DNA of 64,000 bases from Gimesia fumaroli (lineage in GTDB: Bacteria; Planctomycetota; Planctomycetia; Planctomycetales; Planctomycetaceae): positions 5,986,164 to 6,050,163 of the forward strand of contig NZ_CP037452.1 of the NCBI RefSeq assembly GCF_007754425.1, written 5' to 3'. Each line of letters starts with the position of its first letter. Position 1 is the stretch's first letter. The notes beneath the pieces were generated by a model, which was given only the letters and a program-made list of their open reading frames with translations, did no database searches and was not told the origin of the DNA. A program made the position numbers and the translations under genes. Of the stretch, positions 16,396 to 21,782 are shown piece by piece.

Positions 16396-16854
16396 ATGAC
16401 CATGCCTGACGATCTTGTCTTTATGATGGGGAATTTTGAGGCCCGAATTCCTCAAGACCGTGTTTATAGTAAATCACACCTGTGGTTGATGCCGGTGGCT
16501 GACCGTTGGCGCGTGGGTTTTACTGCCTACTCCGTACGTTTATTACAGGATGTCTATTTTCTGGATTGGTTTGTTGATCCATTTACCCATGTTCAGGAAA
16601 AACAGAAGATCGGCGAAATTGAGAGCTCCAAAGCATTGTCCGATCTCTATACCCCGGCTGCGGGACAGATTCTGGAATTCAATGAGGAACTGTTAAACGA
16701 TCCTTCTGCGATCAATCAGGCGGATAATTACGAAAAAGGCTGGTTATTTGAAATGGAGAACGAGGCGCAGTGGTTGACGCCAACTGAGTATCTGCAAGTA
16801 TTAGAGGATGGCTGGGAACAGACTCAGCGAATGATTAAAGGGCAACTCAACTAA
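16396..16854 (+). CDS. Glycine cleavage H-like lipoyl carrier protein
   Basis: 152 residues, longer than ordinary GcvH (about 125-130) by an N-terminal extension. The H-protein core is clear: RVGFTAYSVRLLQDVYFLD, then KIGEIESSKALSDLYTPAAG with the lipoyl lysine at Lys79, then ILEFNEELLNDPSAINQ and EKGWLFEME. H proteins carry a lipoyl-bound aminomethyl group or act as dithiol carriers. No gcvP or gcvT is nearby. Instead it heads a co-directional run with an iron-sulfur protein, a terpene cyclase and a DUF116-prenyl synthase. That context suggests a swinging dithiol arm for redox or sulfur chemistry rather than glycine cleavage, which is inference. The start is ATG 16396 or ATG 16402; no strong ribosome site separates them. 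Confidence 0.85.
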   Translation: MTMPDDLVFMMGNFEARIPQDRVYSKSHLWLMPVADRWRVGFTAYSVRLLQDVYFLDWFVDPFTHVQEKQKIGEIESSKALSDLYTPAAGQILEFNEELLNDPSAINQADNYEKGWLFEMENEAQWLTPTEYLQVLEDGWEQTQRMIKGQLN

Positions 16855-16906
16855 GAAACGACAAAACGCTTCTCTGGTTTCGTTTAGCGTTAAAAAGGTG
16901 TTCGGC

Positions 16907-17944
16907 ATGGCGGATAAAAAATTGACAGTGGTGATCTCGCAGGCACAGGGTAAAAATCCTGCCAAGCGTGAGCTGGAAGAATCACTGGCAGCGGCACTTC
17001 TGATGGAACCGGATGTGGAAGTCTCGCTGGTACCTCACCTTTATGATCTCTCGGCAGACCACACCGGCACCATGTTCCTGCAGGCCATTCGCGGCGACCT
17101 GGTGGTACTGTCCTGGCTGTACCCCCGCGCGAGTCACTGGGTCCTCGACCGGCAGAACATTCGCGGTCAGGAAGGACTGGTTGAACTCAAAGAAGAAATC
17201 GACGAAGAGGAACAGGAAGCTGAGGAAAGCAACTCGGTTCCCTATGACAACCCCGAACGAAATAAGACCATTCCGAATCGAAAAATATATTCGATCGATT
17301 TGCGCGTCAGCTCCAATCCCGATGATTACCTGACCGAAATCAAACGTATCGCCAAAGATACGCAGGTGCAAACAGTCCAACTGGGCAATATGATTCAGGA
17401 AAGCCCGAAGCCGGCACAAATTGAAAAGTATTTGAAGCCGCTGGATATTATCAACGCACAGAAAAACAACAGCGCAGCCAATGACGCCAGCCAGATGGAA
17501 CCAACCAAACGCCGCTGGTATCCGGTCATTGACTACGGCCTGTGTACCAATTGCATGGAGTGCATCGACTTCTGTCTGTTCGGCGTGTACGGCGTCGATC
17601 AGGGAGGACAGATTCTGGTTGAAGAACAGGACAGCTGCAAAAAAGGATGTCCCGCCTGCAGTCGGGTCTGTCCTGAAAATGCGATTATCTTTCCCGGTCA
17701 TAAAACGCCGGGCATTGCCGGCGCCGATGGTGAAGTGGCCGGCTTGAAAATTGATCTCTCCAAACTGTTCGGTGCCCCCGATGCACTGGAAATGGCGGCA
17801 CGGGAACGAGACGCCGAGCTCGTCGCCGATGGACGGGATGCCTTAGGTGTCGGCGTGGGAGTTCCCAATCGTTCAAAAGTATCGCAATCGACGAGTGATG
17901 AGCTGGACGATCTGATCGACAGCCTGGATGCCATGGATTTATAA
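16907..17944 (+). CDS. Two-cluster [4Fe-4S] ferredoxin-domain protein
   Basis: 345 residues from ATG 16907, preceded by AAAAAGGTG; a GTG three codons earlier is less likely. The N-terminal ~90 residues form an alpha/beta domain starting LTVVISQAQGKNPAKREL, with MFLQAIRGDLVVLSWLYPRA, not assigned to a family. An acidic linker (KEEIDEEEQEAEE) and a second alpha/beta part follow. The dicluster ferredoxin domain has Cys213, 216, 219 and 223 (CTNCMECIDFC) and Cys244, 248, 251 and 255 (CKKGCPACSRVC). The C terminus is acidic (DELDDLIDSLDAMDL). It should carry single electrons in the cytoplasm. It lies 52 bp after the GcvH-like gene and 46 bp before the cyclase gene, consistent with one transcript. 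The N-terminal domain may bind a partner protein. Confidence 0.85.
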   Translation: MADKKLTVVISQAQGKNPAKRELEESLAAALLMEPDVEVSLVPHLYDLSADHTGTMFLQAIRGDLVVLSWLYPRASHWVLDRQNIRGQEGLVELKEEIDEEEQEAEESNSVPYDNPERNKTIPNRKIYSIDLRVSSNPDDYLTEIKRIAKDTQVQTVQLGNMIQESPKPAQIEKYLKPLDIINAQKNNSAANDASQMEPTKRRWYPVIDYGLCTNCMECIDFCLFGVYGVDQGGQILVEEQDSCKKGCPACSRVCPENAIIFPGHKTPGIAGADGEVAGLKIDLSKLFGAPDALEMAARERDAELVADGRDALGVGVGVPNRSKVSQSTSDELDDLIDSLDAMDL

Positions 17945-19850: not shown

Positions 19851-19934
19851 TAGAGCCCCCCAGCGTTCCCAAACCAAACTTGCATTCATTGAATCATCGC
19901 TCGAATGAGTTTTTTACTATAAGAGGAGTCATCC

Positions 19935-21782
19935 GTGTCCATTGCGCCTTTCGATCAGGAAAGCTCTGAAGATCAAACTGCCACAGGCTCAACAAAGCCG
20001 GCAGCAGACTCTTCGGCAGAAAAGAAACCGGTCAAAAGAAAACGTCAGAGCACCAGTCACCTCAAAGCGGTTCCGGAAACGCTTGCGCTGCGCGAAGAGA
20101 TGAAAGCCGAAGCGGAAAAGTTTGTGGAGTTCCTGGACTGTTCAAATCCATTTAATAAAACCACATTGGAAAAATGGTCACGCGAACTGCTCGACCAGAT
20201 GAATCAGCCGGAAAAATTCCTGGGCTTCATGATGGTGCTGATCGGCAACTTTTTCTGGAAGCGACAGTTCCTGGCGATCCCCTTTGAACGACGTTTGTTA
20301 CTCCTGCCGCACTGCCTGAAACATGCCGAGGGTTGTCCCGCAGAATACGACGAGTTCGGTCTGGACTGTGAAAAGTGTGGCGCCTGCTCGATTGCCGACT
20401 ATAAAGTCAGAGCCGAAAAGCTGGGCTACAAAGTTCTCGTGGCCGAAGGTTCGCCGGTCGTGCTCAAAATTATCGTCGGCGGTTACGTCGATGGAATTCT
20501 GGGAGTGGCCTGCCTGAACGTCCTGGAAAAATCGATTGATAAAGTCCTGATTGCCGGCGTGCCCTCCTACGCGGTGCCCCTGCATTCCGGTGACTGTAAA
20601 AATACAAAAATGGATGAGCCCTGGATCTGGGAAGTACTCGAAGAGTACCGTCCGCTGGAAGAGCCGCTGACCCGCAGTTATCTGCCCACCATGCGTGCCG
20701 CCAATTCCCTGTTCGAAAACAACTTCGACGAGATCCTGCCCCCCTTAAGAACCAAAACAGAAGCCGCCGCCCAAACACCTCTCGGCAAAACCGAGGCTAT
20801 TGCTTACGACTGGCTGAAGCATGGCGGAAAACGTTTCCGTCCCTTCATCACGCTGGCCGCCTACGATGCGTTGATGAAAGCACAGCAATCGTCAACCGAA
20901 TCAGAAGACGGTCAGACCTACCCGCTGGGCGTACAGAAAGCTGCGATGGCCATCGAAGTCTTCCACAAAGCGTCATTGATTCACGATGACATCGAAGACG
21001 ACGATCAATATCGCTACGGTCGCGAAACCCTGCACCGCCAGCATGGCACCGGCATGGCCATTAACCTCGGTGACTATCTGATCGGCATCGGCTATCGCCT
21101 GCTGAACGAAGCCCGTGCCGACATCGGTGCGGAAGCCGCCGCCGACCTGGTCGAACGCATGGCCGCCGCCCATCTGAAGCTGTGTGAAGGTCAGGGCGCC
21201 GAAATGGCGTGGCAGGAAAGCGAAACGTTTGAACTCGCTCCGATTGACGCGCTGCAGATTTACGCGTTGAAGACATCGCCCGCCTTCGAAGCCGCCTTGT
21301 ACGCCGGCATTCGCATGACCGGTTCGGTCGGCGAGTATGAAGAATTGATCTCATCCTTCTCGCGTCATATCGGCGTTGGCTTTCAGATTCTGAACGATCT
21401 CAAAGACTGGCGCGGCGATGACAACAACAAACTGATTTCTGGTCAGGATGCCCTCGCCATGCGGCCGACATTATTATTGGCCCTGGCACTCCAGACGGCA
21501 GACGACCAGCAGAAAGCCGACCTCAAAGACATTCTTCAAGGCCATCCTTCCGACGGCATGCGAATCGGTCGCCTGCGTAAAATCTATCAGGACTGCGACG
21601 TCTTCACGAAAGCGGAAGCACTCGTCGATAAATCACGGGCACGTGCCGAAGAACTAGCCGAAAGCGTGGACAACGAAGACTTCAAGCAACTGTTGAAGTT
21701 CTTCTGCGAAACCGTATTGGCCGAAGAAACCCCGGAAGAGAAACCCGAACCCAACGTCCTGATGCCACTCCCCATCGCGTAA
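19935..21782 (+). CDS. DUF116 domain fused to trans-polyprenyl diphosphate synthase
   Basis: 615 residues from GTG 19935, preceded by AGAGGAG. Residues 1-60 are polar and disordered-looking. Residues ~60-255 are a DUF116 domain: LLLLPHCLKHAEGC (Cys127, Cys134), CEKCGAC (145, 148, 151), GILGVACLNVLEKSI (Cys193) and GDCKNTKMD (Cys221); this Cys set suggests an Fe-S or Zn site. Residues ~265-590 are an E-type prenyl synthase: GKRFRP (298-303), first Asp-rich motif DDIED (351-355), then RYGRETLHRQHGTGMAINLGDYL. The second Asp-rich motif is NDLKD (487-491), with Asn in place of the first Asp, so metal binding may differ. It should build a linear prenyl diphosphate from IPP units. It closes the four-gene run, 84 bp after the cyclase. 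The fusion ties a cysteine-rich domain directly to chain synthesis. Confidence 0.88.
   Translation: MSIAPFDQESSEDQTATGSTKPAADSSAEKKPVKRKRQSTSHLKAVPETLALREEMKAEAEKFVEFLDCSNPFNKTTLEKWSRELLDQMNQPEKFLGFMMVLIGNFFWKRQFLAIPFERRLLLLPHCLKHAEGCPAEYDEFGLDCEKCGACSIADYKVRAEKLGYKVLVAEGSPVVLKIIVGGYVDGILGVACLNVLEKSIDKVLIAGVPSYAVPLHSGDCKNTKMDEPWIWEVLEEYRPLEEPLTRSYLPTMRAANSLFENNFDEILPPLRTKTEAAAQTPLGKTEAIAYDWLKHGGKRFRPFITLAAYDALMKAQQSSTESEDGQTYPLGVQKAAMAIEVFHKASLIHDDIEDDDQYRYGRETLHRQHGTGMAINLGDYLIGIGYRLLNEARADIGAEAAADLVERMAAAHLKLCEGQGAEMAWQESETFELAPIDALQIYALKTSPAFEAALYAGIRMTGSVGEYEELISSFSRHIGVGFQILNDLKDWRGDDNNKLISGQDALAMRPTLLLALALQTADDQQKADLKDILQGHPSDGMRIGRLRKIYQDCDVFTKAEALVDKSRARAEELAESVDNEDFKQLLKFFCETVLAEETPEEKPEPNVLMPLPIA

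Follow-up and report, generated by a model that had tools for sequence, protein, structure and literature searches.

A four-gene run in Gimesia fumaroli

The window analysed here is a 64,000-nucleotide stretch of Gimesia fumaroli DNA (contig NZ_CP037452.1, a single contig of 7.70 Mb, hereafter C1; the window is C1:5986164-6050163). It contains a run of four open reading frames (ORFs), all on the (+) strand, which encode a GcvH-like lipoyl carrier (H, 16396-16854), a ferredoxin with an additional N-terminal domain (Fd, 16898-17944), a class II terpene cyclase of the squalene-hopene cyclase (SHC) type (Cyc, 17991-19850) and a fusion of DUF116 with a polyprenyl synthase (Fus, 19935-21782, starting at GTG). 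Pfam matches (GCV_H, Fer4_6, SQHop_cyclase, and polyprenyl_synt plus DUF116) bear out the families that a first-pass annotation had assigned to all four genes. The gaps of 52, 46 and 84 bp that it reported between these co-directional genes are correct given an Fd start at ATG 16907, where the relatives start; if Fd starts at the upstream GTG 16898, from which the frame is open, the first gap is 43 bp. The spacing, the shared strand and a gene order conserved in relatives suggest that the run is likely one operon, as had been proposed. A promoter and terminator scan gave counts close to those of shuffled sequence (6 versus 4.4, standard deviation 2.0; 13 versus 8.2, standard deviation 3.6) and was set aside.

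Conserved residues were counted across the distinct sequences of the loci that we fetched: 112 for Fus, 96 for Cyc, 65 for Fd and 56 for H, along with 33, 29 and 18 for the radical SAM, CobW-type and HdN proteins described below. These sets include the window's own sequence, and some entries are the same gene cut at different ends.

By domain, H belongs to the GCV_H family (PF01597, 70.2 bits) and retains the acceptor lysine. Its probable start is ATG 16402, where relatives align. The predicted lipoylation lysine (16630-16632, +; motif ESSKA) is invariant in both alignments of H (21/21 and 56/56), and the Glu and Lys of the ExxK pattern are kept in all 56 sequences. We tested H as a glycine cleavage protein and rejected this assignment: H scores 76.2 bits on the glycine cleavage H equivalog TIGR00527, below the cut-off of 115.85, and a real GcvH is encoded elsewhere in the genome (C1:1590268, 141.6 bits on the same model). 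The structural relatives of H are solved GcvH structures, and we predict that H serves as a lipoyl carrier.

The ferredoxin part of Fd matches the Fer4 families, Fer4_6 at 27.9 bits, and its eight cluster cysteines (17543-17671, +), which would bind two clusters, are invariant in 23/23 aligned sequences and present in 64/65 of the wider set. The N-terminal domain of Fd is matched by the profile of HdN, a small protein with a CxC...C...C pattern whose four cysteines are kept in all 18 HdN sequences (E 9.9e-5, probability 58%). HdN and Fd matches fall in open frames of equal length in 9 of the 14 genomes compared, as expected of one fused gene, and the window's Fd (16907-17944 from the ATG) looks like such a fused HdN-ferredoxin by sequence, in a copy without the HdN cysteines. 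A structure search with HdN and the Fd N-terminal domain returned a common fold only, in which an Elp-Hdr chain ranked level with lysine decarboxylase and receiver domains; the Fd structure model is weak (mean pLDDT 55.9). A near relative of HdN (P0333, 70%) bears an Acidobacteriota metagenome label, which may reflect a gene set reaching beyond Planctomycetota or a mislabelled bin.

Cyc matches both SHC domains (SQHop_cyclase_C, PF13243, 142.7 bits; SQHop_cyclase_N, PF13249, 103.9 bits). Its catalytic acid motif, DADD (the DxDD pattern; 19011-19022, +), has all three aspartates in 28/28 and 96/96 sequences, and the histidine that aligns with His451 of a solved squalene-hopene cyclase (19221-19223, +) is invariant in the same two sets. 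With these domains, the DxDD acid and its histidine partner, Cyc is by sequence a class II terpene cyclase of the SHC superfamily.

Fus carries two domains, DUF116 (PF01976, 127.7 bits, cut-off 25) at 20196-20636 (+) and a trans-polyprenyl synthase (PF00348, 147.8 bits, cut-off 27) at 20799-21554 (+). The DUF116 part has seven conserved cysteines, including a CxxCxxC at 20367-20387, and all seven are present in 112/112 sequences. The synthase part has its first Asp motif at 20985-20999, with the aspartates kept in 112/112, and its second, NDLKD, at 21393-21407. The sequence HKASLxHDD runs up to the first motif; in octaprenyl synthases, a small residue five places before this motif signals products longer than C15. 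The structure model of Fus is weak (pLDDT 65.1, with the DUF116 blocks mostly at 35-57), and its DUF116 part was not used. The nearest relative with a species name is from Gimesia aquarii (91%).

Cyc is distinct from squalene-hopene cyclase

Relatives of Cyc are commonly annotated as squalene-hopene cyclase, and some as sporulenol synthase. On the squalene-hopene cyclase equivalog TIGR01507, Cyc reaches 131 bits against a cut-off of 431.1, and a real squalene-hopene cyclase scoring 709.4 bits is encoded elsewhere in the genome (locus L220, 7239-9392), which also has two genes of the squalene/phytoene-synthase family (SQS_PSY). The first-pass annotation had stated that this is not the hpn hopanoid layout; that holds at the locus, while the genome does contain the cyclase and both SQS_PSY genes elsewhere. 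We searched for SQS_PSY in 52 genomes, 50 of which carry Fus and Cyc. A hopanoid pathway would call for an SQS_PSY enzyme in every genome with Cyc; a match was present in 42 of the 50, and eight had none (G284, G126, G200, G025, G079, G057, G183 and G031). Two of these eight, G057 and G200, are 99% complete and have the full run (L182 and L172). Because Cyc misses the cut-off, the true enzyme lies elsewhere and eight genomes have no SQS_PSY match, we conclude that Cyc is not the hopene cyclase and reject squalene as its general substrate. In the SQS_PSY-negative genomes, home-made squalene is probably not what Cyc acts on, and Fus would be the natural source of its chain. The name squalene-hopene cyclase is probably wrong for many proteins of the Cyc type.

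The run is part of a larger planctomycete gene set

When genome contigs were scanned with the Fus alignment, 372 loci were confirmed, and the best 80 were kept as close loci. On conserved synteny, a check proposed beforehand, the arrangement exceeds chance: in 75/80 a Cyc match precedes Fus on the same strand (in L060, a weak partial match at 28% identity), 27/80 also have Fd, and 25/80 have all four genes in the window's order. Among the five without Cyc, the L079 sequence opens with Fus, and the upstream flank present in L038, L039, L040 and L042 has no Cyc. The next commonest flanking family occurs at only 11 loci, in scattered positions. Where H and Fd lie away from Cyc-Fus, they stay paired in four of the six such stretches retrieved (L204, L205, L206 and L208; not L207 or L209).

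More distant loci hold further genes. At L173, L175 and L179 the order is H, a CobW-type GTPase, HdN, Fd, a radical SAM enzyme, Fus, a second alpha-alpha toroid protein (Tor), Cyc and a cysteine desulfurase (IscS), and at L182 the desulfurase gene is placed before H. In L173, 4-bp overlaps join H/CobW, CobW/HdN, HdN/Fd and Cyc/IscS. In the window's own family, L203 (genome G216) has the radical SAM and CobW genes upstream on the opposite strand and Tor immediately after Fus. The families rest on PF04055 for the radical SAM enzyme, PF02492 for CobW and PF00432 for Tor; the desulfurase matches IscS/NifS models below their cut-offs. All 33 radical SAM sequences have CxxxCxxC and three further cysteines, and all 29 CobW sequences have the P-loop and a CxCC motif. 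The best matches of the radical SAM enzyme are cofactor and peptide maturases such as NirJ, AhbC and WgkB, all far below cut-offs. We rejected its identity with HpnH, as the G. fumaroli protein scores 40.6 bits on TIGR03470 against a cut-off of 225.05. ORF groups c7 and c11 were dropped as antisense to the radical SAM and CobW genes, and group c6 held some wrong-frame ORFs.

The partners missing from the window are present elsewhere on C1: the radical SAM gene at 5671755-5672855, flanked by kinase and amidohydrolase genes (66% identity to the G216 protein), Tor at 5845245-5846150 (51% identity) and CobW at 921469-922554 (65% identity). A Fus query gave three matches in total in this genome, and at least one other polyprenyl synthase is encoded, at C1:1708395. 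The window holds one portion, the four-gene run, of a larger gene set whose remaining partners lie elsewhere in the genome. The four genes of the first-pass annotation are real and its scope was incomplete, the set also having the radical SAM enzyme, the CobW-type GTPase and Tor.

We searched a sample of 294 planctomycete genomes with Fus, Fd, Cyc, the radical SAM enzyme, CobW and Tor, excluding weaker matches to other polyprenyl synthases, ferredoxins, SHCs, radical SAM and CobW proteins. Fus was present in 70 genomes, Fd in 69, Cyc in 66, the radical SAM enzyme in 59 and CobW in 58. Fus and Fd occurred together in 68, with two genomes having Fus without Fd and one Fd without Fus; Fus was accompanied by Cyc in 64, by the radical SAM enzyme in 59 and by CobW in 51, and the radical SAM enzyme was never found without Fus. 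Within the 70 Fus genomes, Tor was present in 63, HdN in 35 and an assigned H in 50. Many of these genes lie within 20 kb of Fus (Fd 51/68, Cyc 51/64, radical SAM 34/59, CobW 29/51, Tor 41/63, H 39/50), and 47 of the 50 assigned H genes are at most 3 kb from Fd. All seven core families (H, CobW, Fd, radical SAM, Fus, Tor and Cyc) were found in 46/70 Fus genomes, and all seven within 20 kb of Fus in 23/70, from 16 families.

Individual genomes depart from this pattern. At L186 (G107) most of the run is present, Cyc lies elsewhere and the radical SAM orthologue is absent at the chosen cut. A paralogous second DUF116-polyprenyl synthase (47-49% identity) is encoded at G105:C1:6745724-6747424 and G087:C14:27732-29414. 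G087, a 99% complete genome of the window's family, keeps this 49%-identical Fus, and orthologues of Fd, Cyc, the radical SAM enzyme, CobW and Tor are absent from it. Since G105, of the same genus, carries both types of Fus (60% and 47% identity), the set may have been lost from G087 and the paralogue retained.

A proposed pathway and its alternatives

With rather more belief than doubt, we read this recurring planctomycete set, with its radical SAM enzyme, CobW-type GTPase and Tor, as one that would make a modified cyclic terpenoid. The gene families, their conserved catalytic residues, their joint presence and absence, the full clustering in distant genomes and the partners in the G. fumaroli genome are established. 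Prenyl chain synthesis and cyclisation, and a redox or sulfur step tied to them, had both been anticipated in the first-pass annotation, and both are supported; the reduction of prenyl double bonds or thiol chemistry that it suggested for this step is conjectural. In the proposed pathway, the synthase half of Fus would elongate an allylic diphosphate beyond C15, and Cyc, probably aided by Tor, would protonate this chain through its DxDD acid and form rings. The unreactive skeleton would then be modified by the radical SAM enzyme, in which three more invariant cysteines could hold an auxiliary cluster; low-potential electrons would reach this enzyme from Fd/HdN and the cysteine-rich DUF116 domain. 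H would contribute a lipoyl dithiol, either as redox partner or to donate sulfur, with the cysteine desulfurase of some runs feeding it, and the CobW-type GTPase would load a metal. Such a pathway would likely yield a polycyclic prenyl lipid bearing a group installed by radical chemistry; the order of steps and any sulfur chemistry are conjectural, and the mechanism is weakest in the roles given to H, CobW and the desulfurase. A bolder version, which is possible and which we find doubtful, has the lipoyl carrier and the Fd/DUF116 relay driving the radical SAM enzyme to install sulfur or a new carbon bond on the polycyclic prenyl chain that Fus and Cyc make, in a widely kept lipid pathway; this would give a radical-modified and possibly thiolated terpenoid unlike any known from an organism.

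Several observations weigh against a terpenoid pathway of this form. The pathway is a prediction from gene content. Because the second Asp motif of Fus opens with Asn in 92/112 sequences (Asp in 20/112), its prenyl synthase activity is not assured, and the long-chain product is predicted from the octaprenyl-synthase rule. The radical SAM, Tor and CobW genes are distant from the run in G. fumaroli, a cysteine desulfurase is near the run in some loci only, and HdN and the Fd N-terminal domain showed no tie by sequence to HdrA. CobW occurs without Fus in seven genomes, and 24/70 Fus genomes are without at least one of the seven families, many of these being incomplete drafts. Fisher p values for co-occurrence (2e-33 to 3e-63) are uncorrected for kinship, and the cuts behind them were set after the scores were seen (E of about 4e-37 for Fus, 7e-18 for Fd, 3e-30 for Cyc, 1e-80 for radical SAM, 1e-40 for CobW and 1e-3 for Tor, or better). 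The H rows of 50 genomes were chosen by score and position, the remaining rows, probably mostly GcvH, being excluded; as they were picked partly by position, the assignment of H is biased to adjacency.

The genes might instead form two modules that share a place, with Fus and Cyc making a simple cyclic terpenoid, as in the C35 sesquarterpene route of Bacillus, and H, Fd, CobW, HdN and the radical SAM enzyme constituting an unrelated cofactor or redox system. The H-Fd pairs found apart from Cyc-Fus, the closeness of assigned H to Fd, the presence of all four genes together in only 25 of the 80 close loci and the annotation of some relatives as sporulenol synthase are consistent with this. We nonetheless think it unlikely, given the near-perfect co-occurrence across the two groups (Fus with Fd in 68 of 70 and 69 genomes, and Fus in all 59 radical SAM genomes), their presence in one run in distant genomes and the fusion of a DUF116 iron-sulfur-type domain to the prenyl synthase itself. 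Less probable again is that the product is not a membrane terpenoid but a prenyl-tailed cofactor, for example a tetrapyrrole or metal-binding one; the chain would then serve as its tail, and maturation of the head group would fall to the radical SAM enzyme. The distant resemblance of that enzyme to NirJ, AhbC and WgkB and the invariant CxCC of CobW would fit such a product, but a cyclase with an intact DxDD and a second toroid protein indicate ring closure and not a plain tail, and the recurring genes include no recognised head-group enzyme. That Cyc cyclises squalene in a hopanoid-type locus, with H, Fd and Fus as chance neighbours, is very improbable: the common naming of Cyc relatives and the SQS_PSY genes in the genome speak for it, and the sub-cut-off score of Cyc beside a separate 709.4-bit cyclase, the Fus+Cyc genomes without SQS_PSY and the conserved neighbours of Cyc speak against it.

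Genes surrounding the run

A DUF817 membrane protein gene (15256-16074, +; PF05675, 318 bits) lies about 320 bp before H in the same direction; it is not among the recurring families listed for the flanks of related loci, and its membership in the set is not indicated. At the start of the window are two ORFs (2-331 and 338-1102, −) whose groups recur at three other loci, about 5-6 kb downstream of Fus. We take these to be CdsA- and UppS-like, and on that assumption prenyl-lipid genes lie near the gene set in some lineages. Downstream, a gene at 22430-23557 (+) encodes a stand-alone protein that has the N-terminal domain found in type I restriction R subunits (HSDR_N, 53.2 bits); an HD-domain gene follows it (23702-25057). 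The window also has four ORFs of one family (11300-12733, 49513-51000, 53683-55119 and 56660-58162), presumably sulfatase-like.

Relation to known systems

Both the hopanoid pathway and the present set have a radical SAM enzyme (in the former HpnH, which acts on a polycycle) and an SHC-fold cyclase with its DxDD acid. The two differ in that Cyc (131 versus 431) and the radical SAM enzyme (40.6 versus 225) miss the SHC and HpnH cut-offs, that a dedicated prenyl synthase, a lipoyl carrier and CobW are added here, and that the true SHC is elsewhere in the genome. The sesquarterpene (C35, sporulenol-type) route of Bacillus, as outlined in PMC7839719, likewise has a long-chain prenyl synthase followed by an SHC-type cyclase; it uses HepS/HepT and a class I first cyclase, YtpB, in contrast to the DUF116 fusion and the iron-sulfur, lipoyl and radical SAM partners found here. 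LbpA, a GcvH homologue described in PMC10332631 as essential for sHdr sulfur oxidation, resembles H in that a GcvH-homologous carrier neighbours iron-sulfur and radical SAM proteins, in that case with LipS1/LipS2 lipoate assembly, whereas here terpenoid enzymes lie within the same run. No sHdr, sLpl(AB) or LipS1/LipS2 genes were recognised among the recurring families, and no family search was aimed at these genes.

The first-pass annotation did not recognise the combination as a described pathway, and searches combining these families returned no paper in the open literature covered; the fusion alone had already been noted. One sentence in the DUF116 portion of PMC5898192 records fusion to polyprenyl synthetase in some bacteria (Psta_0175). 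The same portion proposes electron transfer for DUF116/COG1852 proteins, which share the conserved cysteines with CxxCxxC, and names neither a cluster nor a cyclase, radical SAM or lipoyl partner of the fusion. The relevant parts of two further papers, one listing terpene cyclase and polyprenyl synthase genes common to three planctomycete strains (PMC4982196) and one counting terpene clusters (PMC11588811), do not show this gene set. Within the literature searched, the proposed planctomycete pathway is undescribed, that one sentence on the fusion being the only prior mention found.

The joint presence and clustering of these seven to nine genes in at least 16 planctomycete families suggest a widespread trait. 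It would supply functions for DUF116 and for a GcvH paralogue, would connect terpenoids with lipoyl and radical SAM chemistry, and would provide a candidate lipid biomarker of planctomycetes.

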